Assembly (NCBI RefSeq): GCF_014695385.1
Contig: NZ_JACJOD010000030.1
Coordinates: 62,001 to 126,000, forward strand
Direction of reading: 5' to 3'
DNA length: 64,000 nt
DNA from: Trichocoleus sp. FACHB-46
Lineage (GTDB): Bacteria; Cyanobacteriota; Cyanobacteriia; FACHB-46
The notes beneath the pieces were generated by a model. The model was not told the origin of the DNA. It did no database searches and saw only the letters and a list, made by a program, of their open reading frames with translations. How positions within the stretch are numbered: position 1 is the first letter of the stretch; each line of letters starts with the position of its first letter. Below are positions 26,681-43,671 of this stretch, one piece after another. Made by a program: the position numbers and the translations under genes.

Positions 26681-29600
26681 TCAAGACGTGACAGTTCGAC
26701 CGAGTAGATTCGCGAGAGCGCTAACGAGAGAAGTTGGCTCTACAGGCTTAGCAAAATGCATTTGAAATCCCGCACTCAATGCCTGAGCCTGGTCTTCTTC
26801 TCTTGCATAAGCGGTTAAGGCGATCGCAGGCATCGGTTTGACTGGGTGATGTTCCAGGGTCTTGACTCTATGAATCAGGGCATAGCCATCTTCCCCTGGC
26901 ATGGCAATGTCACTAATCAGAATGTCCGGTTGGAGATTTTCGTAAGCGGCGATCGCTTCGGCGACAGAAGCAACAGCAGTCACGTTGGCTCCAGATTGCT
27001 CCAAGATCGTTTGTAGCAGTTCTCTGGCATCATTCTCATCATCAACGACTAAGACACTCACGCCCTTTAAAATGGAGGACTCCAAGGCATTAGCGATGCC
27101 CTCCAGCAAGCAGTGCGTGGAAGGCGGAAGTTCTGGGTCGGAGGCTGATAGAACCAGAGGCGGCAGCTTGACCGTAAAGGTTGCGCCTTGTCCTTCTCCA
27201 GGGCTTGCAGCGCTGACTGTTCCTCCTTGCAACTCGACCAGGTGCCGCACGATCGCCAGACCCAAGCCTAAACCGCCATGCGATCGCGTACTGGTACTGT
27301 CTGCTTGTCGAAAGCGATCGAAGACGTGGGGCAAAAATTCTGCCGGAATACCTTGGCCTGTATCTTGGACCCGAATTTGAATGCAGGAGTCTATCAGCTC
27401 CAGACTAATCTCTACCTGACCACCCCTGGGCGTGAACTTAATTGCATTGGCCAACAGATTCCAGACAATTTGTTGCAGGCGATCGGGGTCTCCTAACACT
27501 TGAGTTGCCGCCTCGTTTAGCTTTGGCTCCAAGCTGATGCCTTTAGCCTCTGCTGCGGGGCGCACTGCATCAGTTGCCGCCGTAATGACTGTGATTAACT
27601 CTACAGGGCGCACTTGCAGTTGTAGCTTGCCTTGCACAATCCGCGAAACGTCTAGAATATCTTCAATCAGTTGAGCTTGAGATTTGGCATTGCGTTCAAT
27701 GGTTTCTAAGGCTTTCGCTGTAGTAACTTCATCAAATTTGCGGCTTCCCAGTAACCGGGACCAACCCAAAATCGAGTTCAACGGAGTGCGTAACTCGTGA
27801 GAAAGCGTGGCGAGAAACTCGTCTTTCATCCGGTTCGCATCTTGAGCTTCTTGGTAAAGTCTGGCGTTGTCCACGGCTAAGGCTGCCCGCCGAGCTAAGT
27901 CTTCCGCCAGGGTGAGGTCAACCGAGTTATAGTGTCGCTGAGATTCGGAAATGGTGAAAGAAATGACCCCAATGGTGCGCCCAGCCGCAATCAGGGGCAC
28001 AATCATGACCGACTTGGGGTGCAAGGAGCGGATCAGCCGTAGGTAGTCAGCATCGGTGGTGGAATCAGCGATCGCCGCTTCCGACACCTCAGCCAGTAGT
28101 TGAGATTCTCCCGTCTGTAGAGCTTGGAGCACAGGACGCAAGTGGCTGAGGCGCAGCGGATAATATTGCTGGAGTTGGCGAGCTAAATCTTCTTTGGCAG
28201 GGTCAATGTGAGCCACAGTCAGAGGCCGCAGCGACTCCCCATCCTCCACCATGTCGATGACACACAAATCGGCTAGATATGGCACTGCCAACCGAGCTAG
28301 GCTGATCAGCGTGGCCTCGTAATCCAAGGAGGCAGATAGGACCGCGCTGGCTTCGGCTAAAAATGTCGAGCGTTGTTCTGAGGCTTCGGCTACGGCGCGG
28401 GCTGCTTGCTCACAAATTAGTTGGGCTCGTTCCTCCTCGGCTTGCTTGCGTTCCGTAACATCCTGAATCTGAGCAATAAAATGTACAGGTTCGCCTTGGG
28501 AATTATGCACCAGCGAAACGTTCAGTAATACCCAAACAACGTGTCCCTGCTTGTGGAGATAGCGCTTTTCCATCTCATAAGCCTGAATCTCTCCAGTCAG
28601 CATTTGACAGACAAAGATTAAGGTTCTGTCTAAGTCGTCTGGGTGGGTGACCGCTTGAAAGTTGGTATTGAGCAATTCTGAATCTGAATAGCCCAGCATT
28701 TGGCAAAGGGAACGATTCACTTGCAAGAAGCGGCCATCTGTGGCGATCAGGGCCATTCCTACCGCTGAATCGTGGAAGGCTCCCTTAAAACGCTCCTCAC
28801 TTTCACGCAGGGCAGCTAGCGCCGTTGTGTGTTCTACCACCATCGCTTGGCGGGCTTCAAACTCAGCGGCATGCATTACTGCTGCTGCAATAAAGCCTGC
28901 CATGAGGCGGAGCGTGTGCGTGTCTTGCTCACTAAAAGCATTGACGTTAGGAGACAGAACCTTCAGTACCCCGGCAATTCGGCGTTCGTAGCGCAAAGGG
29001 ACTGCAATCATCGAGCGAGCTCCTACCCGTCGATAAACCTCTGGACTGATCCGGGGATCAGTTTCAGCGTCATCACATCGTAGAATTTCTCCGGTGTGAA
29101 AACATTGCCCAGAAAAGCAGGTATCAGCTTTAACGCGCAAGCCCACGTAAGGCGCTGCCGTTCCACTGGCAACTCGATAGACCATGTCTTCGCCGTTGGG
29201 TAGCAAAATGACCGCGCCTGTAGCCGAAGTAATCTTTTGCGTTCGCTCGGCAATTAAGTTCATGACGCGCAGTAAATCTAGCTCTGCGGTGGCGATGTCA
29301 TGTTGGGTATCAATAATGGCTGTCAGCCGCTCAGCGTCATCGCGCAACCAAGCTTCTGTGCGTAAGCGCTCTGAAATCTGCTCTTTTAGGGCTGAGTTCG
29401 CAGTAGAAAGTTCAGCCGTTCGTTTAATTACTTCGGCTTCTAACTGGTCGTGGGCTGCCTGAAGGGCTTCCTCGGTGCGTTTACGCTCGGTCATGTCGCG
29501 CATCAGTTTTGAGAAGCCCCGTAAGCGCCCAAAGCGATCGCGTAAGGCCGTGGTGATGCCACTAGCATAGAAACGGCTCCCATCTTTTCGCACATGCCAG

Positions 29601-30232
29601 CGTTCGTCTTCGGCTCGGTCTTCGGCGATCGCTTGCTTAATCTCTTGGTCTGGCTTGCCCTGCTGCACATCCTCAGCCGTAAAAAAGCAAGAAAAATGCT
29701 GCTCTAGAATTTCAGCTTCTTTGTAGCCTAAGATCCGCTCGGCTCCTGGATTCCAACTCGTAACTCGGCCCCGCGTATCCAGCATGAAAATGGCATAATC
29801 TTTGACATTTTCGATTAGCAGCCGATACCGTTCCTCGCTACGGCGCAGGGTTTCCTGGTGCTGCTTTGATCTCAGCCAAAAAACTTCTGTCCCCTTCTGG
29901 GCTCGGTGGAGAGCGGCGCTCAGTAGGCTAATTAAAACTCCCTCCACCGCAAAGAGCCCCAGGGCAAAAGCCTGCTCTGAAGACGGCGATGTCAAGGAAT
30001 CAAACGGGGCAACGTAAAAATAAGCGCAGCCCAAGGTGGCTAGCAGAGTGGCGACCATCCCAGGACCGAAGCCACCATACCAAGCGCTGGCTATGACAGC
30101 GCTAAATAGCAATAAGAATGGAACTTGTGATTCTAATAAATCAGCTAGTGGAGATTGCAGAAGTAGAGCCAATGCTACTCCTAGGACAGCAATCCCATAG
30201 CGCAGGAATAGTGAACGGTAGACTGGCAGCAT
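26681..30232 (-). CDS. Hybrid sensor histidine kinase, PAS-GAF-PAS-GAF-HisKA-HATPase-REC
   Basis: An 1183-residue membrane-anchored two-component hybrid. Order: KdpD-like DUF4118 membrane bundle (about 10-110, with a VPFLLLFSAVIASAWYGGFGP-type block), PAS/PAC (about 130-250), a coiled linker (AEVIKRTAELSTANSALK), GAF (about 305-450), PAS/PAC (about 475-595), GAF (about 630-790), HisKA with phospho-acceptor His812 in FLATLSHELRTPLNS, HATPase (NLLANAIKFTP, DTGQGIP, GGLGLGLAIVRHLVELQGG) and REC with Asp1108 in ILISDIAMPGEDGY. All catalytic residues look intact. The ligands of its sensors are unknown. No partner regulator is adjacent, so signalling may end in its own receiver or pass to a distant phosphotransfer protein. 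Confidence 0.93.
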   Translation of the reverse strand: MLPVYRSLFLRYGIAVLGVALALLLQSPLADLLESQVPFLLLFSAVIASAWYGGFGPGMVATLLATLGCAYFYVAPFDSLTSPSSEQAFALGLFAVEGVLISLLSAALHRAQKGTEVFWLRSKQHQETLRRSEERYRLLIENVKDYAIFMLDTRGRVTSWNPGAERILGYKEAEILEQHFSCFFTAEDVQQGKPDQEIKQAIAEDRAEDERWHVRKDGSRFYASGITTALRDRFGRLRGFSKLMRDMTERKRTEEALQAAHDQLEAEVIKRTAELSTANSALKEQISERLRTEAWLRDDAERLTAIIDTQHDIATAELDLLRVMNLIAERTQKITSATGAVILLPNGEDMVYRVASGTAAPYVGLRVKADTCFSGQCFHTGEILRCDDAETDPRISPEVYRRVGARSMIAVPLRYERRIAGVLKVLSPNVNAFSEQDTHTLRLMAGFIAAAVMHAAEFEARQAMVVEHTTALAALRESEERFKGAFHDSAVGMALIATDGRFLQVNRSLCQMLGYSDSELLNTNFQAVTHPDDLDRTLIFVCQMLTGEIQAYEMEKRYLHKQGHVVWVLLNVSLVHNSQGEPVHFIAQIQDVTERKQAEEERAQLICEQAARAVAEASEQRSTFLAEASAVLSASLDYEATLISLARLAVPYLADLCVIDMVEDGESLRPLTVAHIDPAKEDLARQLQQYYPLRLSHLRPVLQALQTGESQLLAEVSEAAIADSTTDADYLRLIRSLHPKSVMIVPLIAAGRTIGVISFTISESQRHYNSVDLTLAEDLARRAALAVDNARLYQEAQDANRMKDEFLATLSHELRTPLNSILGWSRLLGSRKFDEVTTAKALETIERNAKSQAQLIEDILDVSRIVQGKLQLQVRPVELITVITAATDAVRPAAEAKGISLEPKLNEAATQVLGDPDRLQQIVWNLLANAIKFTPRGGQVEISLELIDSCIQIRVQDTGQGIPAEFLPHVFDRFRQADSTSTRSHGGLGLGLAIVRHLVELQGGTVSAASPGEGQGATFTVKLPPLVLSASDPELPPSTHCLLEGIANALESSILKGVSVLVVDDENDARELLQTILEQSGANVTAVASVAEAIAAYENLQPDILISDIAMPGEDGYALIHRVKTLEHHPVKPMPAIALTAYAREEDQAQALSAGFQMHFAKPVEPTSLVSALANLLGRTVTS

Positions 30233-30886: not shown

Positions 30887-33373
30887 ATGAATCATGCTAC
30901 GGCACCCATTTATTGCCCCATTTGTCAGACGCTCAATACGGAGGCGTACAACTTTTGCCAACAATGCCGATCCTCTCTGCCCAAACGATATCTCTGGGCT
31001 GTAGGGACAGGGGTTGATGCCTATCAAATCGGAGATGTCTTAGGCGATCGCTATGTCTTAAAAAGCCGCCGAGTTTTGTTCGACACTAAACCAGGGCTGC
31101 TCCCCGATCTACCCAGTGATATTTCCGACGCGATCGCCCCTTATCTCAGGTTGTTTCCGTATCAACTGCATATTCCCCAGGTATATGGGCAAGTGCAAAC
31201 GGAAAAGGGCGCTCCAGTGGTGCTGCTGGAGCAAGTTCCGCTAGAGACGAGGCGTTGGAGCCAGAGTGCAGCCGAACTATCGCATCCACTGTTCCCTGCC
31301 TTGGCTGATGTCTGGACAGAGGCCCCAGCAATCCGACAACTGAATTGGTTGTGGCAAATCTCGCAGTTATGGCAGCCGTTTAGTAGTGAAAGGGTAGCTT
31401 CTAGCCTAGTCGAGCCCCAACTGTTGCGAGTGGAAGGGCCACTGGTGCGCCTACTGGAACTACAGAGCGATCGCAAATCCGCTCCTACTTTGAGGGAACT
31501 CGGACAGTTATGGTTGCAGTGGGCACCGACGGCCCAGCCTGAAATTGCGCGTTTTCTAGCAGCCTTGTGTCATCAAATGATTCAAGGGCAGATTCGTACG
31601 CCCGAACAACTGACTGCTCAACTAGACCGAGGCTTGGTTGTTTGTGGGCGATCGCAAGCTCGTTTGGCCCAGATTGCTACGCGCACTGACCAAGGCCCCA
31701 GTCGCCAACGCAATGAGGATGCCTGCTACCCGGCGAGTGGTACTGCTTTTTCAGTGCCATTGCATCCTGGGGAAACGCCCAAAACCCTGACCTTGGTTTG
31801 TGATGGCATTGGTGGTCATGAAGGAGGGGATGTTGCTTCTAATCTCGCGATCGCTGCCGTTCAGGAACGAATTCAAGATCTAGAACTGGACGTAGCTCTG
31901 CAACACCCAGATAGCTTAATGGCAGAACTGGAGCAGGCTGTGTGTCTTGCCAATGATTTAATTTGTCAGCGCAATGACCAAGAGCAACGGCTAGACCGCC
32001 AACGCATGGGCACCACTTTAGTCATGGCATTGGCCCGTGGTCATGAAGCTTATATCACTCATATTGGCGATAGCCGCGTCTATTGGATTACCCGAACTGG
32101 TTGTTACCAACTCACAGTAGATGACGATGTCGCTTCGCGGGAAGTGCGCTTGGGCTATGCCTTATACCGAGATGCGGTACAGCAACCAGTTGCAGGTTCG
32201 CTGGTGCAAGCTCTAGGCATGAGTAGTTCAGCTACGCTGCATCCGACTGTGCAGCGTTTGATTCTGGATGAAGCGGGTGTCTTCTTACTTTGTTCGGACG
32301 GCTTGACTGAGAACGATCGCGTTGAGGAGTGCTGGGAAACCGAAATTCTGCCAATTTTGGACGGTAAGGTGGATGTAGCCACTGCTTGCCAACGCCTGGT
32401 CGAAATTGGCAACATGCGGAATGGGCATGACAACGTTACTGTCGGCCTGCTCTACTACCAAGTGACGCATACCGAAGCGATCGCAGAATTGCCAGCGTCT
32501 CTGTTGACGGAGTCACCGGATCTAGACCTCCCCCCAACTAGGCAGCCCACGGCGATCGTAACTGACACACCCACTCAGGTGGTGAATGCAGCTCCATCCA
32601 CCCTAAAAACTCAAATCTTACCGCCACGGCGTTCTCCGAATGGAGCTCTACTGCTGCTAGGCATTCTGTTGTTGGTTGGTCTAGGCGGCGTTCTCGCTTA
32701 TCTGCTTTTGCCTGGGGTTAGTCGTCGCATCGATCCACTACTGGGTCGGGCTCCCCAACCAGATGGAGCGCAAGTAAACCCTGGTACGCCTATTCCTACC
32801 CTGCCCTCACCAAATTCCTCGCCCCTTGTCTCGTCGCTCACCTTGGCCCCAGGGACTTTGATTCAAATTCGTCAACCCACTTCAGGGCTTGCTAGCGATC
32901 GCGAAACCGGATCAATTCAATTGCAACCTCAGCCGGGCAGTTCTACAACTGCACCTGATCCCGAATCAGGCACTGCATCAGGCGATCGCACTCCTAATGC
33001 TGCAACGGCTCAGTTAGTTCCCGCAGGGGGACTACTGCAAGTCTTGAGCAAGCAAGTCATTCCTGCTCAAGGCAGTTGGGTCAAATTAAAAGTTTGCTCC
33101 ATTCCTAGTGGCACGAACGCTCAGGAACCCGCGTCTCCAAAAACCGCAACTCCCATTCCTACCGCCTCGCCTGCCAACCGCGCGACAACCCCGTCACCCA
33201 GCGATCGCTTTCTGCAACCTGGAGCCAGTGGCTGGATTGAAGAAGCAGTTTTAATGCCCTTGATTGAGCCTAATTCGCCCTCACCAAATCAATTAGGAGC
33301 TTGTAGCAATCCCCCATTAACCTCGACACCCACGCCTACCACTGCACCCAGCCAATCACCAGCTCCAGAATAA
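30887..33373 (+). CDS. PP2C-type protein phosphatase with zinc-ribbon and kinase-like N-terminal region
   Basis: An 828-residue Ser/Thr phosphatase. N-terminus: four-Cys zinc ribbon (CPICQTLN, FCQQC, residues about 10-30), then a region starting YQIGDVLGDRYVLKSR that resembles a kinase lobe but shows no Lys/HRD/DFG set, so it may be a pseudokinase. The PP2C core begins near residue 265 with RQRNEDA, then CDGIGGHEGGDVAS, MGTTLVMALARG, HIGDSRVYWI, LLCSDGLTEND and NGHDNVTVG, all metal ligands present. A single membrane helix (about 585-608, ALLLLGILLLVGLGGVLAYL) leads to a Pro/Ser/Thr-rich, probably extracytoplasmic tail that ends in an SH3-like stretch (GGLLQVLSKQVIPAQGSWVK). ATG 30887 is chosen over GTG 30863 because GGTAGGA lies just upstream. 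It is followed 95 bp later by the CHAT-FHA gene on the same strand. Confidence 0.88.
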   Translation: MNHATAPIYCPICQTLNTEAYNFCQQCRSSLPKRYLWAVGTGVDAYQIGDVLGDRYVLKSRRVLFDTKPGLLPDLPSDISDAIAPYLRLFPYQLHIPQVYGQVQTEKGAPVVLLEQVPLETRRWSQSAAELSHPLFPALADVWTEAPAIRQLNWLWQISQLWQPFSSERVASSLVEPQLLRVEGPLVRLLELQSDRKSAPTLRELGQLWLQWAPTAQPEIARFLAALCHQMIQGQIRTPEQLTAQLDRGLVVCGRSQARLAQIATRTDQGPSRQRNEDACYPASGTAFSVPLHPGETPKTLTLVCDGIGGHEGGDVASNLAIAAVQERIQDLELDVALQHPDSLMAELEQAVCLANDLICQRNDQEQRLDRQRMGTTLVMALARGHEAYITHIGDSRVYWITRTGCYQLTVDDDVASREVRLGYALYRDAVQQPVAGSLVQALGMSSSATLHPTVQRLILDEAGVFLLCSDGLTENDRVEECWETEILPILDGKVDVATACQRLVEIGNMRNGHDNVTVGLLYYQVTHTEAIAELPASLLTESPDLDLPPTRQPTAIVTDTPTQVVNAAPSTLKTQILPPRRSPNGALLLLGILLLVGLGGVLAYLLLPGVSRRIDPLLGRAPQPDGAQVNPGTPIPTLPSPNSSPLVSSLTLAPGTLIQIRQPTSGLASDRETGSIQLQPQPGSSTTAPDPESGTASGDRTPNAATAQLVPAGGLLQVLSKQVIPAQGSWVKLKVCSIPSGTNAQEPASPKTATPIPTASPANRATTPSPSDRFLQPGASGWIEEAVLMPLIEPNSPSPNQLGACSNPPLTSTPTPTTAPSQSPAPE

Positions 33374-33468
33374 ATGGACTCTGCTGTCGGAACTCAACTC
33401 TTCCAAGACCAGATAGACTGATAGGAAAACTAGCGATCGCTCAGATTCTTACAACTTACGGTTTTTGA

Positions 33469-35181
33469 ATGCCTGTGTCAGAAACTCCTTGCCTTAGCCT
33501 GTCCATTCAGCGTTTGGCAGCTTCAGGAACAAATCGATATGTAATCTGGGTTATCAATGCCCCCTACCCGAGTGGGTACGTCTTACACGATTGCGTTTGG
33601 CCTGACACGCTAACGCAAGCTTGGCAAGCTTGGCAGGAAATGTTTTCTCTGCGCGGTCTGCCGCAAGTGCCTCATGTCTCTTCGGTGCCACCAGCGACAT
33701 CGCCTCCAGCCTCTACACCAGAACCCAACGCCCTACCGTATGGGGCTCGCTTGATGCAGAACTTAGGGGTCAACTTGTGGCAATGGCTATTTGACGGCCC
33801 CGTAGAAGCTAGCATCAATCGTAGCCAAGGCATGGCTTTTGGGCTAGGTACACCGCTGCGATTGCGCTTAGAGATTCGCGACCCTGAATTGATTGCCTTG
33901 CCTTGGGAAATCATGCAATCCCAAATGGGCCGCTCAGTGATTTCGATCGCTAGTGATCAGATTTTGTTTAGCCGTACGACTAGTGAGGTAGAATCGCTGC
34001 CAGCTTTACGGATGGAGCAATCCCTCAAGGTGCTTTTGGTCCTAGGGCAAGGCATAGATACAGCCTCTAATCATTCTGAAAATGTTGGGGCTGGGGCTGC
34101 ATCCCCGCAACCAGCAACGCTGAATCTAGAACAAGAAGCCGCTGCATTAGAAGAAATCCTGACCAATCATGAGGTTTCAGACACAGGCGGCCAGCAAACA
34201 GTAGCAGTGCGCTCCCAGGTAGACACTCTGATCCAGCCCACTCCAGCACAGCTAATTGAGCACCTAGAAACAGGAAAATACAACATTTTCTTTTACGCAG
34301 GGCATGGTGTACCTGCACCTGACGGCGGCTTGCTCTTGTTGGGTCCTGGAAACGCTCTTAATGGCACCGAATTAGCTCAAGTTTTGACTCGTTGCCGCGT
34401 TACTCTCGCAGTATTTAATGCTTGCTGGGGTGCCCAGCCAGATCACACCAATGACCAACCAATTCCACGCAGCAGTCTGGCAGAAGTCCTGATTCATCAT
34501 GGAGTCCCTGCGGTTCTGGGCATGCGCGATTCTATTACAGACCAAGAAGCGTTGAGTTTTATCCGTTCCTTCGCCCAAGCCCTGAGAAAAAGTGAACCGA
34601 TCGATCGGGCAGTAGCTTTGGCAAGACAGCATCTTTTAATGCTGTACAAATTTAATCAGCCTGCTTGGACCTTGCCAGTTCTGTACATGCATCCACAATT
34701 TGATGGTCGATTGATCCACACGGAGGGTGGTATCCAGTTCGGGCAGGACATTAAGGAAGATAAAGGCAACAACACCATGCTGCCGCCAGAAGGATTTCCT
34801 AGCGACATCAGACCTCGGATTCCAATGGCTTCTCTACGCTTAAGCGGACTTCCACCTAAAGCTTGGCCAATTCGAGACGGAGTAATTCGGGTAGGCAGCC
34901 AAGGAGATAATGATTTGGTTTTACCAGAAGCTGGAGTTTCTCGATACCATGCCAAAATTTTCTATAGAGATGCTTCAGATCAGCCAGATAACCAGCCAGC
35001 CTACATCCTGCAAGATGTGTCTCGATATGGAACTTTCATTTTAGGGTCAAATGGCTGGCGAAGAATCCACCAACAGGAAGTCTCTTTGCGCTCTGGAGTT
35101 CAGCTAAAATTTGGCAATCCTAATGGGCAAGCGTTAGAGTTTTTGATCGAGCGCCCAACTTCTGAGGAAAACCACATCTAA
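33469..35181 (+). CDS. CHAT (caspase-like) protease domain fused to FHA domain
   Basis: A 570-residue protein. CHAT is a clan CD cysteine-protease domain of the caspase/separase group. The catalytic dyad is visible: His279 in IFFYAGHGVPAPDGG and Cys319 in AVFNACWGAQPD, followed by FIRSFAQALRKSEPIDRAVALAR, as in typical CHAT domains. An N-terminal region (1-150) with LALPWEIMQ-type text (ELIALPWEIMQSQ) is common upstream of CHAT cores. The FHA domain (about 465-560) carries IRVGSQGDNDLVLP, VSRYHAKI and SRYGTFILGSNGW, the phosphothreonine-reading motifs. The FHA could bring the protease to phosphorylated targets, and the adjacent PP2C could remove those marks. Substrates are unknown. No signal peptide or membrane helix is seen, so it is probably cytosolic. 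Confidence 0.9.
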   Translation: MPVSETPCLSLSIQRLAASGTNRYVIWVINAPYPSGYVLHDCVWPDTLTQAWQAWQEMFSLRGLPQVPHVSSVPPATSPPASTPEPNALPYGARLMQNLGVNLWQWLFDGPVEASINRSQGMAFGLGTPLRLRLEIRDPELIALPWEIMQSQMGRSVISIASDQILFSRTTSEVESLPALRMEQSLKVLLVLGQGIDTASNHSENVGAGAASPQPATLNLEQEAAALEEILTNHEVSDTGGQQTVAVRSQVDTLIQPTPAQLIEHLETGKYNIFFYAGHGVPAPDGGLLLLGPGNALNGTELAQVLTRCRVTLAVFNACWGAQPDHTNDQPIPRSSLAEVLIHHGVPAVLGMRDSITDQEALSFIRSFAQALRKSEPIDRAVALARQHLLMLYKFNQPAWTLPVLYMHPQFDGRLIHTEGGIQFGQDIKEDKGNNTMLPPEGFPSDIRPRIPMASLRLSGLPPKAWPIRDGVIRVGSQGDNDLVLPEAGVSRYHAKIFYRDASDQPDNQPAYILQDVSRYGTFILGSNGWRRIHQQEVSLRSGVQLKFGNPNGQALEFLIERPTSEENHI

Positions 35182-35268
35182 GCCAATTGGCCTAAATTTC
35201 AATTGCTTGCGGAACTTCCAAAAATCGGCGTGTAGCTACCCACGTCAAATGCAATCAGGAGTAGCACG

Positions 35269-35883
35269 ATGAGAAACGGAACTATGCACTCAGACTATTT
35301 CGAGCACTCTCAATTCCAAGTTGAACTAGATGATTTACTAGAGGCTACTCTGAGCATCGATACTCCTTACCCTTGGAACATCGCAGACCCGGAAGCAGCG
35401 TCCTATCTGGAAAAGCTAGAGCAAGGATTTTCTCTAGATAACTGGCCTGAGGATGAAGTAGCAGCGCGATCGCAGGACTTCTTCGCTCGTCTAGATGGAA
35501 TTTGGGCACAAAATTCTCTATCGCAGCGTTTTGCTACCTGGGCTCCTCAAAGTGTTTTAAACGCGATTGTGCAGCAAGCTCAAAAGCTGGTTGCTAGCAA
35601 TTTGTCTCTCGCTGAGCAGCTAGTTCAGTGCGTGCAGCAAAGCTTACCTAATTGGGATGCTGATGACCTGCAAGTCTTAGCACGTCCGCTGGCTTATGCG
35701 ATGCGGGGTGTAGAAGCAGAAACCACTGAAGTTGTGGAGTCTACGCTTAAGGCAGTGCGACCCGTAAGTTGGGAAGAGCTATCAGAACTGGAGCAGGCCC
35801 GTCTGAGCCTGTCGATCGCTCGTTGTGCTTTGGCTCAGCTGCATCAAACTGACAGCGCTCAAACTGATGAGAGTTGTGAATGA
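35269..35883 (+). CDS. Unknown acidic helical protein in the PP2C/CHAT locus
   Basis: A 204-residue soluble, acidic protein that I do not recognise. It has no membrane segment and no Cys pattern apart from scattered residues. The sequence is rich in Ala, Leu, Gln and Glu and looks all-helical (AIVQQAQKLVASNLSLAEQL). The start at ATG 35269 has a good AGGAG about 10 nt upstream. It follows the CHAT-FHA gene by 87 bp on the same strand and is convergent with the FHA-PrsW gene, so it could be a partner, adaptor or regulated substrate of the protease. That role is inferred from position only. Confidence 0.7.
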   Translation: MRNGTMHSDYFEHSQFQVELDDLLEATLSIDTPYPWNIADPEAASYLEKLEQGFSLDNWPEDEVAARSQDFFARLDGIWAQNSLSQRFATWAPQSVLNAIVQQAQKLVASNLSLAEQLVQCVQQSLPNWDADDLQVLARPLAYAMRGVEAETTEVVESTLKAVRPVSWEELSELEQARLSLSIARCALAQLHQTDSAQTDESCE

Positions 35884-36010
35884 TGAGCTAGGCATTGATA
35901 GTCTCCGTTGAGTTTTAGGTATAAAAGATTGCTTTCAATGATTCTATTCAAGCATCCTCTGAGAACTGCATCATCGCCCAACTGGGCGAACTGAGCTAAA
36001 AGTTCAAAGG

Positions 36011-37393
36011 CTAAGGAGACTTGGAAAGCCGAGTAGCAAAGTTTTGAGAGCGTGTCGGTGACAGTTGTCGAGCCTTGAGGATTGCTGCTGCCAAAAAAGC
36101 ATAAGAGACAACTCCAACGATCATCAGCAGTAGAGCGTTAATGGTACCAGCTGCATTCCATAAAGCATGCAGGATCGCTGCGGTAAGATAGCCGATGCTG
36201 AGAATGAACCAACGTTTTCTAGGTTTGAGCACAGTGAGACCTACAAAATAACCTAGGTAGCCACTGTAAGCAATATGACCAGCCACAGAGCCCAGAACTC
36301 GTGGAATTAAGAGTTGGAGACCTTCTAGGGAACTAGACTGCTGCTCAATGTCTGGAACGTATTGGCCCAAAGTTTCTACTAGCGTAAATCCAGCGGCGGC
36401 AGCGGTGCCCAACAAAATGCCATCTAGAGGTTCCCAAACGCCAATTTGTTCTCGCCAGGGCGATCGCAGACAGCGACCGAGCCAGTAAGCTAGCAGGACG
36501 GGCAGAGCTTTTAGCAACTCCTCCATCAAGCCAGCCCCAAAGAACATGCTAGTGATGAGCCTGAGAAAACTAGTAGACTCATCTGGAATTGGTAAACGAC
36601 CGGGAAGCACTTGGCGAAACAGCACAATGAAAGTCGATAGAATGGGACTCCGCAAAATGAGCACCATGACGCCTAGAGCCCCTAGTAGCACCCACCACGG
36701 CTTTCTTTTACCGCAGAGCTGATAAACGAGATAATAAGCTGCCCCGACTAGGTAGGTAGCAAGCAGCAGATTAAAGGCGACTGGCTGACCCACAGCGGCA
36801 AACATAAGCACGACAAAGCCGACTGTGACGATACCAGGAACTAAGTAGGCTTTGTGCGCTAGCTCTCTTCCAGTCGAAAGAATAGGAAATAGTTGCGTTA
36901 AAGTGACCGAGTCTGTCGCTACTAACCGAGGGCTTCTTAAGGGCGGTGCGGTGGCAGCAGACTGGAAGGGCACAGTATGGCTAGGCTGTGGCACGACCGC
37001 TAAATGGGAAGCAGCTGAAGGCTCGACTAAATGACACTCAAAAATAAATTCTGGGCCGTTACCACCGAGCCCAATGCGATCGCCGACCTGCAAAACTTGG
37101 CACCCCTGTAAGCGCTGTCCATTTAAGTAAGTGCCATTGGCGCTATTAAGGTCGCAAATTTCCCAGAGCGGTTCTTGAACTTGAGTTTTGAAGTTGAGGA
37201 TGGGACGGATTTGAGCATGTCGTCGTGACACCATCCCAAACAAACTTGAGTCTAAAACAATCTGGCAATAAGTATCTCGTCCAACCGTTACTGATTGGGT
37301 GCGCGACAACGGGTAGCAAGGAGAATTCCGTTCTATAGAAGTTGCAGAAGGAACTTGCCAGAGGAAGGCGACGTAAGGATCTTGATCCGTCAT
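36011..37393 (-). CDS. FHA domain fused to PrsW-family intramembrane metalloprotease
   Basis: A 460-residue protein. The N-terminal FHA domain (about 25-120) has VTVGRDTYCQIVLD, SRRHAQI and LNSANGTYLNGQRL. The C-terminal half has eight or so membrane helices and the PrsW/CAAX-protease-like signature: MFFGAGLMEELLKALPVL with Glu291-Glu292, LGTAAAAGFTLVETLGQY, and His in SVAGHIAYSGYLGYF and AAILHALWNAAG. PrsW in Bacillus subtilis makes the site-1 cut of an anti-sigma factor; the substrate here is unknown. I chose ATG 37393; a GTG lies six bases upstream. It is convergent with the CHAT locus and 47 bp downstream of a small membrane-protein gene. Confidence 0.88.
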   Translation of the reverse strand: MTDQDPYVAFLWQVPSATSIERNSPCYPLSRTQSVTVGRDTYCQIVLDSSLFGMVSRRHAQIRPILNFKTQVQEPLWEICDLNSANGTYLNGQRLQGCQVLQVGDRIGLGGNGPEFIFECHLVEPSAASHLAVVPQPSHTVPFQSAATAPPLRSPRLVATDSVTLTQLFPILSTGRELAHKAYLVPGIVTVGFVVLMFAAVGQPVAFNLLLATYLVGAAYYLVYQLCGKRKPWWVLLGALGVMVLILRSPILSTFIVLFRQVLPGRLPIPDESTSFLRLITSMFFGAGLMEELLKALPVLLAYWLGRCLRSPWREQIGVWEPLDGILLGTAAAAGFTLVETLGQYVPDIEQQSSSLEGLQLLIPRVLGSVAGHIAYSGYLGYFVGLTVLKPRKRWFILSIGYLTAAILHALWNAAGTINALLLMIVGVVSYAFLAAAILKARQLSPTRSQNFATRLSKSP

Positions 37394-37440
37394 CGTCACG
37401 AAGGCTGGGTTTTAAAAGCTAGGCTTATCTTGCCACACTT

Positions 37441-37635
37441 TCACTGGTTTGCCCTGGCATCTCGAACCGCTGCCAAGAAAAAGACTACAGTCAACGGGAT
37501 GCTAATGGCCAGAATAATTCCGGTGACTAGTCCACCTAGATCTGGTTTTCCAGAAGATAGCTCAAATACAGAGCCAACCGCAGCGATCGCGGCTACGCAA
37601 GAACCGCCCAAGAATACACCACTTTTCGGGGTCAA
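37441..37635 (-). CDS. Small two-helix membrane protein
   Basis: A 64-residue protein with two hydrophobic stretches, GVFLGGSCVAAIAAVGSVFE and GLVTGIILAISIPLTVVFFL, and a short basic tail. I do not know a named family. The start would be a TTG at 37635, a weak point. It precedes the FHA-PrsW gene on the same strand by 47 bp, so it could be a co-expressed partner or substrate. A longer frame on the opposite strand (37295-37666) shows no protein-like features and is rejected. Confidence 0.5.
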   Translation of the reverse strand: MTPKSGVFLGGSCVAAIAAVGSVFELSSGKPDLGGLVTGIILAISIPLTVVFFLAAVRDARANQ

Positions 37636-37888: not shown

Positions 37889-38452
37889 CTAAGCAACAGG
37901 CTTCACAGCCTGAGCCGAAAACCCATACTTAGCCAGCTCTTGATTGAGTGCTAGGCCATTCTCGACTCGGTCTACAAATAACACACCGTTTAAGTGATCC
38001 ATTTCATGCTGAATCGCCCGAGAGAGTAGTCCAGTTGCAGTTAGTTTCTGTGGCCGTCCATACTCGTCTTTATAAGACACCTCGACTGCCGCAGGTCGTT
38101 TGACATCTAGATAAACCCCTGGAATGCTGAGGCAGCCTTCTTGAGCTACACAAATATCGCGGCCCATGTGCTTGACGCTGGGATTGATCAAGATCAGCGG
38201 TTGATTAGTGGGGTCATCTGGTTCGCAATCTATGACAATCAGTTGTTTCTGCACAGCTACTTGGGGAGCAGCCAACCCAATACCATCAGCGCTGTACATG
38301 GTTTGGAGCATTTCACGTACTAAATCGCGGATTTCTGCATCCACTTTATTAATTCGCTTTGCTGGCTGGCGTAAGACGCGATCGCCAAGATGGTGAATTT
38401 CCAGAGGCGGATTATCTAACTTTTTCTTTTCGACAAGAACCTCAGAAGTCAT
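37889..38452 (-). CDS. def: Peptide deformylase
   Basis: This enzyme removes the formyl group from the N-terminal Met of new proteins. The 187-residue length is typical. All three metal-site motifs are present: GIGLAAPQVA, the Cys-containing QEGCLSIPGV and HEMDHLNGVLFVDR (HExxH). The start is ATG 38452. It lies downstream of the giant repeat genes on the same strand but behind their terminator, so it is probably transcribed alone. Confidence 0.96.
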   Translation of the reverse strand: MTSEVLVEKKKLDNPPLEIHHLGDRVLRQPAKRINKVDAEIRDLVREMLQTMYSADGIGLAAPQVAVQKQLIVIDCEPDDPTNQPLILINPSVKHMGRDICVAQEGCLSIPGVYLDVKRPAAVEVSYKDEYGRPQKLTATGLLSRAIQHEMDHLNGVLFVDRVENGLALNQELAKYGFSAQAVKPVA

Positions 38453-38697: not shown

Positions 38698-41600
38698 CTA
38701 AACTGTGAAATGGTTTTCGATGGAAACATTGAGCGTGTAACTATCATTCGCCGTGAGCGGTGTACCCGTGATTCCGCTGCCAATGGTGTTGGTTGACTCA
38801 ACCTTGGCAACTCCAATAACGTAACGCCCTGGGGCATTAAAGTTATAGGTCAGATATGAATCATTCAAGGACGAACTACCAGCATCAGGGCTACCAGCAT
38901 CATCATTTGTTGCTAAGAGAGTACCTCTGTTGTCAAAGAGGAATATCTCGGTATCCAAAGCCGCAGTACCACCCTGATCGGCAAAGTCAATATCAAAGAT
39001 ACCTTGGACAGAACCTTGCCCTGAGGCACTACCGATAATAAACGAGTAGTAGTCAAAGGAGCCATCTCCCCTAACTGAGACAGAGGTGTGCGGAATGGTT
39101 GTAGCAGCAGTGATGTTTTCGTTGGCGGCTAAGGAGAAATTAGAATCAATGCTCTGAGCCACGATCAAATTTACTGTCGCTGTCGCATTGCCGCCTGCGC
39201 CATCACTCACTGTGTAAGTGAAGCTATCACTGCCATTAGCGCCACTAGTAGCGTTGTAGACATAGGTACCATCAGGTCTAGCCTCCAAGCTACCACGGGT
39301 TGGCTGGGTGGTACTGGCGATCGTTAGGGTTCCCTCAACATCCGTATCATTGGCTAACAAGGTACCAGGAATGATGGTGGTTGAAGTCGTAGCATCTACT
39401 ACTAATAGGTCAGCCGAAGCTTTGGGTAAGTCGTTGACAGCAGCAACCGTGATATTGACTGTGGCAGAAGCCGTTCCCCCATTGCCATCACTGATGGTGT
39501 AGGTGAAGCTATCAGAGCCGTTGAAGTTGGTCGTCGGGGTATAGCGGAAGGTACCGTTGTTGCTGATAACGGAGCCATTCGCAGGATTGGTATTTCCGGT
39601 AATTGACAGAGTGTTGCCCTCAACATCAGTGTCATTCGCTAGGGCTGCGATCGTGACTACTGTATCTTCGTTAGTTGTGACCGTATCACTGTTGGCAATC
39701 GGAGCATCATTGACCGGGGTGATGGTGACATTAACTGTGGCAGAAGCAGAGCCACCATTGCCATCACCGATGGTATAGGTGAAGCTGTCTGTGCCATTCG
39801 CATTCGCATTGGGCGTGTAAGTGAAGACGCCGTTGTTGCTGACCACAGAGCCCCGAGTGGGATTGACAGAGACCCCTGTAATCGAAAGGGGATTGCCTTC
39901 TACATCCGTGTCATTGGTCAGGACAGGGATGTTGACCTGTGTGTCTTCAGTGGTGCTTGCTGTATCGCTGATGGCAATCGGAGCATCGTTGACTGGAGTG
40001 ATGGTGACATTAACTGTGGCAGAAGCAGAGCCGCCATTGCCATCACTGATGGTGTAGGTGAAGCTGTCTGAGCCATTCGCATTCGCATTGGGCGTGTAAG
40101 TGAAGACGCCGTTGTTGTTGACCACAGAGCCCCGGGTGGGATTGACAGAGACCCCTGTAATCGAAAGGGGATTGCCTTCTACATCCGTGTCATTGGTCAG
40201 GACAGGGATGTTGACCTGGGTGTCTTCAGGGGTGCTTGCCGTATCGCTGATGGCAATCGGAGCATCATTGACCGCGTTAACCGTGATGTTGACCGTTGCC
40301 GAGGCAGAGCCGCCATTGCCATCACTGATGGTGTAGGTGAAGCTGTCTGTGCCATTCGCATTCGCATTGGGCGTGTAAGTGAAGACGCCGTTGTTTTGGC
40401 TCAGGCTACCCTTGGTCGCCAGAGAGAAATTACTAACACTCAGAACATCGTTTTCAGCATCGGTGTCATTAGCAAAAGCATTAATCGTGACCACTGTGTC
40501 TTCAGGGGTGCTTGCTGTATCGCTGATGGCGATCGGAGCATCATTGACCGCGTTAACCGTGATGTTGACTGTGGCCGAGGCAGAGCCGCCATTGCCATCA
40601 CTGATGGTGTAGGTGAAGCTGTCTGTGCCATTCACATTCGCATTGGGCGTGTAAGTGAAGACGCCGTTGTTGTTGACCACAGAGCCCCGAGTGGGATTGA
40701 CAGAGACCCCTGTAATCGAAAGGGGATTGCCTTCTACATCGGTGTCATTGGTCAGGACAGGGATGTTGACCTGGGTGTCTTCAGGGGTGCTTGCCGTATC
40801 GCTGATGGCAATCGGAGCATCATTGACTGGGGTGATGGTGACATTAACTGTGGCAGAAGCAGAGCCGCCATTGCCATCACTGATGGTGTAGGTGAAGCTG
40901 TCTGTGCCATTCGCATTCGCATTGGGCGTGTAAGTGAAGACGCCGTTGTTTTGGCTCAGGCTACCTTTGGTCGCAAGGGAGAAATTACTAACACTCAGAA
41001 CATCGCCTTCAGCATCCGTGTCATTGGTCAGGACAGGGATGTTGACCTGTGTGTCTTCAGTGGTGCTTGCTGTATCGCTGATGGCAATCGGAGCATCATT
41101 GACCGCGTTAACCGTGATGTTGACTGTGGCAGAAGCAGAGCCACCGTTGCTATCAGTAATGGTGTAGGTAAAGCTATCTGTGCCGTTGAAATTGGTGTTT
41201 GGGGTGTAGCGGAAGGTGCCATTTCCCTGATCAATTAGCTGACCATTCGTAGCTGAGGTACTGCTACTGAGGAAAAAGGTATCACCCTCAATGTCACTGT
41301 CGTTGGCTAAGACATTGACAATTGTGGCTTGTGTATCTTCATTAGTGCTTGCCGTATCGCTATTGGCAATGGGCAGGTCGTTCACCGCGTTAACAGTGAT
41401 GTTGACGACGCCAGTAGTACTGCCTCCCCTGCCATCACTAATGGTGTAGGTGAAGCTATCAGACCCGTTGAAGTCAGGATTGGGTATGTAATTAAACGAG
41501 CCGTTGTTGCGACTGTCTACTGTACCGCTACTAGGCTGAGTGAAGCTAATAATTGCGATCGCGTCTTGGTCTGCATCTCTATCGTTGGTGAGTACATTAG

Positions 41601-43671
41601 TAATTAAAACCAACGAATCTTCATTCGTGGTTACTGCGTCACTACTCGCAACCGGAATATCGTTGACTGACGTAACATTGACGTTGACCGTAGCAGTCGC
41701 GGTTCCACCACTACCATCTGTAATGGTGTAGGTGAAGCTATCAGAACCGTTAAAGTTAGGGCTTGGAGTGTAAGTAAAGGTTTGATTGCCGTTATCTCTG
41801 ATAGCACCATTTAATGCTGGACCAAAGCTATTGATTAGCAGTTGCTGTTGGTCTGCATCACTATCGTTTCTCAGGAGCTCATTAGGAGTAATGAGTAACT
41901 CTGTGTCTTCACTGGTCGTGAATGCATCATTGTTGGCAACAGGAATATCTTGAACTGAGTTGACAACTAGGGTGACAGTAGCAGTCGTAGAACTACCTTT
42001 GCCATCAGTAACGACATAAGTAAAGCTATCACTGCCACTAAAGTTGGCAGTAGGTGTGTATGTAAGACTCCCATTACTACTCGCTAGCACTCCCCGTCCC
42101 GGTTGGGAGAAGCTAGTAATTAAAGGGGTATCTTGGTCAGCATCGCTGTCATTAAGTAACAGATTGGCCTGAGTAAAGGTAACCGATGTATCTTCGTTTG
42201 TCGTAATAATATCGTTACCCGCGATCGGTGCGTCGTTGATCGCGTTAACGTTCAGAGTCACAACAGCAGTTGTATTACCACCGCGACCATCTGTAATGGT
42301 GTAAGTGAAGGTATCTGTGCCGTTGAAGTTGGACTTGGGGGTATAGATATAGGAGCCGCCAAGATCAACGAGCCTACCGTTTAGTGGCTGAGTAAAGCCT
42401 GTAATTAAGATAGGATTGCCATCAGCATCCGTGTCATTGCTTAACAGCGTAGCTCGACTGAAACTGACTTCCGTATCTTCGTTGGTACTGAAAGTATCGT
42501 TGCCCGCTATGGGTACATCATTGACGGAACGAACAGTGAGGTTGACGGTACTAGCGACTGTAGTACCATTGCCGTCTGTAATGGTGTAAGTGAAGCTATC
42601 TGTGCCGTTGAAGTTGGACTTGGGATTGTAGATAAAGGTGCCATTGCCCAAGCCCTCGACCGTGCCATTGGCAGGTTGCACGAAGTTATCGAAGAAGAAG
42701 GTGTCTCCCTCAGGATCGAAATCGTTCCTCAGTAGCTCGGTGCTAGTGAAGCTAAGCGCAGTGTCTTCGTTGGTAGTAAACGCGTCATTACCTGCAACCG
42801 GAGTATCTGGGCTGGGGTTAATGGTAATGGTGACAGTACTACTCGCTACACCACCATAACCATCACTCACTGTGTAGGTGAAGCTATCAGTTCCCTCATA
42901 GTTAAGCTCTGGGGTGTAGGAGAATGTCCCATCGGTATTAGTCGTCAGCGACCCATGAGCAGGACTAGTGAAACCTGCAATGACCAGTGGATCACCATCG
43001 CGATCGCTGTCATTGGCCAAGAGACTGGGGAGGAGTGTAAGAGTATCTTCATCAACAGTAAAGCTCTCACTACCAGCAACCGGAGGCGTATTTATCGCAG
43101 TTCGTCCCTCCTTAATTCCGAAAAAGACGAAATGTCGGAAGCCACTGGCAAAAGAGCCACTCGCAACAGCTGCCGCGACGTCTGAGTTGTGTTCTAGATA
43201 GAATCGCTCGTTATAAAAAATACTTGGATTGCGAGTCTGAGTAGTATCAGCCTCAAACTGACCAAAACGAATAAAGTGCTCGAAGCCACTGTTAAAGACG
43301 CTTGCCTTAACTGCTGAGAGGACATCTGGGTTATTGGCCAGATAATATGCCTCATCAAACAGAAAACTGGGAGAACGAGTTGGACTGTTCCCAAGCTCAA
43401 ACTGACCAAACTGAATGAAGTGCTGAAACCCGTTAGGAAAGAAGCCTTGCCGAACAGCTTCCGCTACATCCGGGTTATTGGTTAGATAAAACGCCTCATC
43501 AAATAAGGGGCTAGGGTTGCGGCTAGGGCTGTTGACAACTTCAAACTGACCAAATTGAATAAAGTGTTCAAAACCACTGATAAAAAAACCTTGCCGGACA
43601 GCCTCTGCTACGTCCGGATTATTCACGAGATAGAAGCTCTCATCAAATAGGTCGCTAATACTCAAACTCAT
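38698..43671 (-). CDS. Giant surface/secreted protein: NPDV repeats, 14 cadherin-like (tandem-95) repeats, PPC-like C-terminus
   Basis: A 1657-residue protein. Residues 1-195 are four copies of a 48-residue module with the core FYLxxNPDVAxAV and HFIQFGQFE. Residues about 200-1505 are 14 tandem repeats of about 93 residues, each with TxEDT, NDTDxEG, NGTDSFTYTISDGxGG and ATVNITVNAVNDAPIA, the pattern of cadherin-like Ca2+-binding adhesin domains. The last 150 residues resemble a pre-peptidase C-terminal domain (TIPHTSVSVRGDGSFDYYSF). There is no classical signal peptide, so export by a type I-like route is inferred. A second, larger paralogue lies upstream with the same start and leader. Likely roles are cell-surface adhesion or sheath structure. 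The protein is strongly acidic. Confidence 0.88.
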   Translation of the reverse strand: MSLSISDLFDESFYLVNNPDVAEAVRQGFFISGFEHFIQFGQFEVVNSPSRNPSPLFDEAFYLTNNPDVAEAVRQGFFPNGFQHFIQFGQFELGNSPTRSPSFLFDEAYYLANNPDVLSAVKASVFNSGFEHFIRFGQFEADTTQTRNPSIFYNERFYLEHNSDVAAAVASGSFASGFRHFVFFGIKEGRTAINTPPVAGSESFTVDEDTLTLLPSLLANDSDRDGDPLVIAGFTSPAHGSLTTNTDGTFSYTPELNYEGTDSFTYTVSDGYGGVASSTVTITINPSPDTPVAGNDAFTTNEDTALSFTSTELLRNDFDPEGDTFFFDNFVQPANGTVEGLGNGTFIYNPKSNFNGTDSFTYTITDGNGTTVASTVNLTVRSVNDVPIAGNDTFSTNEDTEVSFSRATLLSNDTDADGNPILITGFTQPLNGRLVDLGGSYIYTPKSNFNGTDTFTYTITDGRGGNTTAVVTLNVNAINDAPIAGNDIITTNEDTSVTFTQANLLLNDSDADQDTPLITSFSQPGRGVLASSNGSLTYTPTANFSGSDSFTYVVTDGKGSSTTATVTLVVNSVQDIPVANNDAFTTSEDTELLITPNELLRNDSDADQQQLLINSFGPALNGAIRDNGNQTFTYTPSPNFNGSDSFTYTITDGSGGTATATVNVNVTSVNDIPVASSDAVTTNEDSLVLITNVLTNDRDADQDAIAIISFTQPSSGTVDSRNNGSFNYIPNPDFNGSDSFTYTISDGRGGSTTGVVNITVNAVNDLPIANSDTASTNEDTQATIVNVLANDSDIEGDTFFLSSSTSATNGQLIDQGNGTFRYTPNTNFNGTDSFTYTITDSNGGSASATVNITVNAVNDAPIAISDTASTTEDTQVNIPVLTNDTDAEGDVLSVSNFSLATKGSLSQNNGVFTYTPNANANGTDSFTYTISDGNGGSASATVNVTITPVNDAPIAISDTASTPEDTQVNIPVLTNDTDVEGNPLSITGVSVNPTRGSVVNNNGVFTYTPNANVNGTDSFTYTISDGNGGSASATVNITVNAVNDAPIAISDTASTPEDTVVTINAFANDTDAENDVLSVSNFSLATKGSLSQNNGVFTYTPNANANGTDSFTYTISDGNGGSASATVNITVNAVNDAPIAISDTASTPEDTQVNIPVLTNDTDVEGNPLSITGVSVNPTRGSVVNNNGVFTYTPNANANGSDSFTYTISDGNGGSASATVNVTITPVNDAPIAISDTASTTEDTQVNIPVLTNDTDVEGNPLSITGVSVNPTRGSVVSNNGVFTYTPNANANGTDSFTYTIGDGNGGSASATVNVTITPVNDAPIANSDTVTTNEDTVVTIAALANDTDVEGNTLSITGNTNPANGSVISNNGTFRYTPTTNFNGSDSFTYTISDGNGGTASATVNITVAAVNDLPKASADLLVVDATTSTTIIPGTLLANDTDVEGTLTIASTTQPTRGSLEARPDGTYVYNATSGANGSDSFTYTVSDGAGGNATATVNLIVAQSIDSNFSLAANENITAATTIPHTSVSVRGDGSFDYYSFIIGSASGQGSVQGIFDIDFADQGGTAALDTEIFLFDNRGTLLATNDDAGSPDAGSSSLNDSYLTYNFNAPGRYVIGVAKVESTNTIGSGITGTPLTANDSYTLNVSIENHFTV
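39820..41210 (-). repeat. Highly similar 276-279-bp repeat units inside the 1657-residue gene
   Basis: Five consecutive cadherin-like units (repeats 8-12 from the N-terminus) are nearly identical at DNA level. Two unit types alternate: type A (NPLSITGVSVNPTRGS) and type B (DVLSVSNFSLATKGS), in the order B-A-B-A-A. The same DNA stretches recur at 39840, 40119 and 40677 (type A) and at 40394 and 40949 (type B), a two-unit period of about 555-558 bp. Confidence 0.85.

Follow-up and report, generated by a model that had tools for sequence, protein, structure and literature searches.

The window, a stretch of 64 kb from a cyanobacterial genome of 6.56 Mb, carries five reading frames (Table 1) that had been read in an earlier note on this DNA (the original prediction) as one system. 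All five are present where they had been placed, and Pfam confirms the PP2C, CHAT, FHA and PrsW domains assigned to them; no significant Pfam match was obtained for U204 or the 64-aa protein. Only three of the five genes, those for the PP2C protein, CHAT-FHA and U204, lie on the same strand, and the genes for FHA-PrsW and the 64-aa protein are convergent to them. The transmembrane helix of the PP2C protein is assigned from a reading of the sequence only. Directly upstream of the PP2C gene, on the opposite strand (26681-30232), a hybrid sensor histidine kinase of 1183 aa with PAS/GAF-like repeats and a receiver domain is encoded, which is retained in two close relatives only (L009 and L010). 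At 38698-43671 (minus strand) there is a gene for a 1657-aa protein with many cadherin-like NDAPIA repeats, which is likely to be a surface adhesin. A scan of the locus for promoters and terminators gave matches at chance level.

Table 1. Genes and catalytic residues at the locus, with positions in the window
Feature	Position	Strand	Evidence
PP2C protein, 828 aa: zinc ribbon (four Cys), predicted pseudokinase, PP2C, one TM helix, Pro-rich tail	30887..33373	+	Pfam PP2C_2 1.5e-13
CHAT-FHA, 570 aa: CHAT at about aa 99-418, C-terminal FHA at aa 473-549	33469..35181	+	Pfam CHAT 1.6e-23, FHA 8.9e-12
Catalytic His279 of CHAT	34303..34305	+	Conserved 80/80 (best 80 of 371 relatives)
Catalytic Cys319 of CHAT	34423..34425	+	Conserved 80/80 (best 80 of 371 relatives)
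U204, 204 aa, all-helical, PatU-like; putative substrate or regulator of CHAT-FHA	35269..35883	+	Model pLDDT 85, profile homology, co-occurrence
FHA-PrsW, 462 aa, glutamic intramembrane protease; convergent, loosely linked	36011..37399	-	Pfam PrsW-protease 2.4e-37, FHA 7e-16
64-aa protein, probably two TM helices	37441..37635	-	Adjoins FHA-PrsW and def in 23/25 loci
Peptide deformylase (def), conserved beside the FHA-PrsW block	37889..38452	-	Recurrent neighbour

The conservation of this arrangement was followed among the best 80 of 371 relatives of CHAT-FHA, all from named genomes, neighbours being counted only where room allowed. In this sample U204 comes directly after CHAT-FHA in 66 of 72 loci, with a median gap of 139 bp, and the PP2C gene precedes CHAT-FHA in 45 of 74, with a median gap of 124 bp. 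The FHA-PrsW gene is found convergent in 25 of 65 loci, in 23 of which the 64-aa gene and def lie alongside. Since the gene order recurs across many cyanobacterial families, the arrangement is not due to chance. Adjacency even survives rearrangement: in one locus (L096, 9060-11653) the order is reversed, U204 coming immediately before CHAT-FHA in the same orientation, and the two genes are still side by side. Upstream of the PP2C gene other lineages have ndhM (26 of the 80 loci) or a gene for a DUF6737 protein (nine loci); for example, both are found in locus L036 (5952-7086).

Co-inheritance was analyzed in 155 genomes drawn evenly from the cyanobacterial class. Both CHAT-FHA and U204 are encoded in 72 of these genomes, neither in 82, U204 alone in one and CHAT-FHA alone in none, counts for which Fisher values overstate independence because the sampled genomes are related. 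The two genes are adjacent in 58 of the 72 genomes and apart in 14, some of the splits possibly being contig breaks; in at least two genomes (G007 and G154), however, both genes are on one long contig and clearly far apart. Co-inheritance is therefore not merely a by-product of linkage. Scattered joint absences within families (G012 in family f11, G121 in f16) point to a joint loss of CHAT-FHA and U204. The PP2C family accompanies CHAT-FHA in 69 genomes and is missing in three; it occurs without CHAT-FHA in 17, a count obtained with a loose threshold that includes some low-scoring proteins, perhaps paralogues. It is adjacent in 51 of the 69 genomes, and there is no close PP2C gene in the other 18, where contig breaks are possible. 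The proposal that the CHAT-FHA, 204-residue and PP2C families occur together and stay adjacent was thus borne out. The sole genome with U204 and without CHAT-FHA (G038, locus L022) has the genes for PP2C, U204, FHA-PrsW and the 64-aa protein and def in order, as if the protease gene alone had been lost.

As judged from sequence comparison, the nearest characterised relative of CHAT-FHA is HetF. The best NCBIfam family of CHAT-FHA is HetF (E = 2.7e-41, 141.7 bits), matched by residues 98-418 only, and because the score is far under the equivalog cut-off of 1200 bits, CHAT-FHA is considered a relative of HetF rather than HetF itself. The HetF-like protein of the same genome (L166) scores 893 bits. 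When whole genomes are searched with CHAT-FHA, the matches other than its orthologues are mainly a single HetF-like protein in each genome. In a tree, HetF and CHAT-FHA are joined against ten other CHAT domains of the same genome with a support of 100/100, the placement of one very long branch (own_L168) being unsure. A TPR region after the CHAT domain is not present in CHAT-FHA, in which Pfam recognizes only CHAT and FHA. The catalytic dyad proposed earlier, His279 and Cys319, is kept in every one of the best 80 of 371 relatives.

CHAT domains serve as effectors in conflict systems, and the locus could be read as a cassette for defence or programmed death, comparable to anti-phage and other conflict systems with CHAT, in which a caspase-like effector is gated by phospho-signals. 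This is very improbable: the distribution is vertical, single-copy and conserved, the neighbours ndhM and def are housekeeping genes, and HetF, to which CHAT-FHA is most closely related, is a divisome protein. An anti-phage defence system was set aside, none of the four proteins searched having a match in PADLOC. HetF functions in cell division and in heterocyst development (PMC8406250, PMC12288457), and mutation of its active site leads to loss of function (PMC8406250). The association with cell death that had been suggested for the caspase-like domain is unsupported; HetF acts in division and differentiation. PatU3 inhibits both division and differentiation and, as reported in PMC12288457, is a target of HetF, which cleaves it and so limits PatU3 as a negative regulator.

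It is this regulator family to which U204 is related. By profile comparison U204 is a remote homologue of PatU. When 39 genomes were searched with a single U204 sequence, there were two weak extra matches beyond the U204s, in two genomes; each is a protein of about 340 aa whose gene overlaps the gene for HetZ (NCBIfam HetZ up to 1e-86) and comes immediately after it. In all of 30 further loci the end of HetZ was likewise found upstream of PatU. The genes that follow hetZ in Anabaena are patU5 and patU3 (PMC12288457). The alignment of U204 with PatU in hhalign has a score of 47.6 (E = 5e-6), as compared with 24.1 and 20.8 for reversed alignments and at most 22 for three other families. The U204 profile places 28 of 31 PatU sequences above all 2118 background ORFs as well as above 620 shuffles and 31 reversals. 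In the opposite direction, the PatU profile ranks 32 U204s ahead of every control and of any other sequence that is not a PatU. The match is collinear with approximately 24% identity, and it covers the middle of PatU only; motifs common to both are YPW, P..L...Q, approximately LV.cV/aV..LFP, and Q..LSL..AR..L. The predicted model of U204 is helical (pLDDT 85), and a comparison of its fold with the PDB gave no usable match (the lowest E in Foldseek was 0.5, and the highest Z in VIA was 5.9, for portions of P450s). A sequence search of the PDB found coiled or designed helices only, and Pfam on 73 U204s gave only scattered chance matches. The 204-aa protein, which the original prediction had left without a role, is here the protein most closely partnered with the protease and, from its profile, a homologue of PatU.

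How the two protease-PatU pairs are inherited was compared in the 39 genomes. HetF and PatU are both encoded in 23, neither in 15, HetF alone in one and PatU alone in none; CHAT-FHA and U204 are both encoded in 22, neither in 16, U204 alone in one and CHAT-FHA alone in none. Crossing the pairs gives seven mismatches each. It follows from the concordance of the matched pairs and the mismatches of the crossed ones that the two pairs have been gained and lost as separate units. The genome under study also encodes hetZ, an unsplit PatU (371 aa; L154, G000:C14:186556-187632) and the HetF-like protein mentioned above. We consider it probable, with a likelihood of roughly 60%, that CHAT-FHA and U204 form a pair paralogous to HetF and PatU3 of the heterocyst-forming cyanobacteria, with CHAT-FHA either cutting U204 or being checked by it.

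The core of the system would then be a unit of two proteins, a cysteine protease of the HetF type and a soluble, helical, PatU-like regulator. Since cleavage of PatU3 by HetF has been reported, CHAT-FHA is by analogy most likely to cut U204 and in this way would set the level of the regulator, perhaps for growth or division. Within the same reading U204 could instead hold CHAT-FHA in check. A candidate cleavage site is Arg146 of U204 (window 35704-35706), which is kept in 72 of 73 U204s, lies in the short stretch that separates two predicted helices and corresponds approximately in position to a conserved PaRS in PatU; as an Arg it would be an attractive P1 residue for a protease of clan CD, which is speculation. 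It should be noted that co-occurrence alone does not tell a substrate from an inhibitor, an activator or a subunit of a complex. Indeed, a near-obligate one-to-one co-occurrence with tight adjacency is typical of stable complexes, and U204, unlike many substrates with linear motifs, is predicted to be well folded. U204 might therefore be an activating or inhibitory subunit of CHAT-FHA, the real targets being elsewhere, as in CHAT/separase enzymes with dedicated partners. This we regard as possible, if rather unlikely; PMC12288457 reports PatU3, the relative of U204, to be the target of a protease, which favours the substrate role by analogy only. For the HetF-PatU-type pair, the sequences establish which genes are there, that the active sites are conserved, that the two partners are inherited together and that they are homologous to HetF and PatU, and the pseudokinase fold is predicted; the cleavage of U204, the physiological output and any control by phosphorylation are inferred.

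The phosphorylation signal, if there is one, would probably be linked to the pair by the PP2C protein, a usual and not obligatory third member. The original prediction had recognized the phosphatase correctly, its metal-binding Asp residues (D277, D305, D470 and D514) being conserved in 41 of 41 sequences, and had overlooked the zinc ribbon and the pseudokinase. The four Cys in the first 30 residues are conserved in 40 of 40 aligned relatives. Residues of approximately 43-260 are predicted to have the fold of a protein kinase (model pLDDT 92.8): the top Foldseek matches of the model are to the pseudokinase of Rv3910/MviN (E = 4e-5), and VIA aligns about 180 residues with kinases at Z = 10-12, all being kinase-fold among the matches listed. 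In a weak underlying sequence alignment the positions of HRD and DFG read ASSL and LEL, and the N-terminal domain is therefore a pseudokinase according to the model. The protein has no Pkinase match in Pfam, and hhalign of its N-terminus against the kinases of the same genome is not significant (probability 0.9%), so that the domain is assigned to the kinases by its predicted fold. The genome encodes two paralogues that share this zinc-ribbon and pseudokinase N-terminus (L122 and L123, on contigs C13 and C6 of G000), one of them with a double zinc ribbon. In mycobacteria the FHA protein FhaA binds the pseudokinase of MviN when the latter is phosphorylated (PMC11898655, PMC3601408). The pseudokinase at the locus could likewise be a docking or phospho-acceptor domain, and by analogy with MviN-FhaA a kinase signal might conceivably reach the pair through it.

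Whether the FHA domain of CHAT-FHA can read such a signal depends on the residues it has kept. Ser477 replaces the Arg and Tyr520 the Asn of the canonical domain, and Ser491 is present. Among the best 80 of 371 relatives the Arg is found in 64, the Ser in 79 and an aromatic residue in place of Asn in 73; the Ser for Arg is seen in the genus studied here. In the absence of both Arg and Asn, phospho-reading is doubtful in the protein studied here and possible in most orthologues, and phospho-gating of CHAT-FHA is weakly suggested. The FHA domain of FHA-PrsW, on the other hand, has the canonical Gly-Arg, Ser and Asn-Gly residues in 25 of 25 sequences. The same 25 sequences keep the Glu-Glu pair, His375, His411 and Asn415 of the protease, and the pair predicted as Glu291/Glu292 is correct when numbered from the conserved ATG (293/294 from the GTG at 37399).

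The original prediction combined these observations in a five-gene system of phosphorylation-gated proteolysis: targets would be marked by an unseen kinase, the two FHA domains would bring the proteases to them, and the PP2C would reset the system. The frequency and adjacency of the PP2C family in genomes with CHAT-FHA, the Foldseek match of the pseudokinase to a protein that binds an FHA protein when phosphorylated, the canonical FHA of FHA-PrsW, and the 39 Pkinase matches in the genome as candidate kinases are all consistent with it. However, neither Arg nor Asn is present in the FHA domain of CHAT-FHA at this locus, and of the orthologues most have lost the Asn and a fifth the Arg; no kinase gene was found as a recurrent neighbour of the CHAT-FHA loci; and FHA-PrsW, on the opposite strand and in a block of its own with the 64-aa gene and def, is phyletically loose, occurring with CHAT-FHA in 55 of the 155 genomes, being missing in 17 with CHAT-FHA and being present without it in 40. 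We therefore judge this system improbable. An obligate unit of five genes including FHA-PrsW is ruled out by the phyletic table. FHA-PrsW is a frequent neighbour and no working part of the unit, for which a role of PrsW is unsupported. What stands of the earlier model is the neighbourhood of CHAT-FHA, U204 and the PP2C and the active sites; the membership of FHA-PrsW and the cell-death link are unsupported, and phospho-reading by CHAT-FHA is doubtful in this genome. A more elaborate version of the HetF-PatU-type reading would be a second, phospho-controlled switch in which a kinase phosphorylates the pseudokinase, the FHA domain docks, U204 is cut and the PP2C resets the system, regulating growth or division in many cyanobacteria, whether they form heterocysts or not; we put it forward tentatively and think it unlikely in this complete form.

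Work on HetF and PatU3 has dealt with them as factors of heterocyst formation and division in Anabaena. The presence of another CHAT-PatU-like pair, inherited independently of the first, suggests that the scheme of protease and regulator is general in cyanobacteria and has been duplicated. U204, a previously unannotated family, thereby gains a testable role, and two proteases with two PatU-like proteins allow a direct comparison of what the proteases recognise. The adjoining pseudokinase-PP2C protein may tie the scheme to Ser/Thr phosphorylation, of which the targets and kinases in cyanobacteria are mostly unknown (review PMC11863333). In a literature search of incomplete coverage no paper was found on CHAT-FHA, U204, the pseudokinase-PP2C protein or FHA-PrsW in cyanobacteria. 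The type of system is already known from HetF-PatU3, of which the CHAT-FHA/U204 pair would be a further form.

Of the known systems, the PP2C phosphatases of the PRK14559/Stp1 type share with the PP2C protein the core and the metal residues, but the latter scores 263 bits against the PRK14559 cut-off of 374 and belongs to a distinct orthologous group. With MviN/Rv3910-FhaA of mycobacteria it shares a predicted pseudokinase fold and an FHA protein encoded alongside; here, however, the pseudokinase is part of a fusion with a zinc ribbon and a PP2C, and the FHA of the putative partner is degenerate. FHA-PrsW has the EE, His and HxxxN motifs in common with PrsW, from which it differs by the N-terminal fusion to FHA and by a score of only 22.7 bits against an equivalog cut-off of 225. 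U204 and PatU/PatU3 share a collinear helical core, motifs and a profile match in both directions, but U204 is without the N- and C-terminal parts of PatU, is encoded after CHAT-FHA and not beside hetZ, and pairs with CHAT-FHA and not with HetF. CHAT-FHA, finally, has the CHAT dyad in common with HetF (Anabaena alr3546; divisome, heterocyst development), to which it is 35-37% identical over about 320 aa and sister in the tree; its 570 aa include an FHA domain in place of the TM and TPR parts of HetF, and the putative partner of each protease is a protein of the PatU family.
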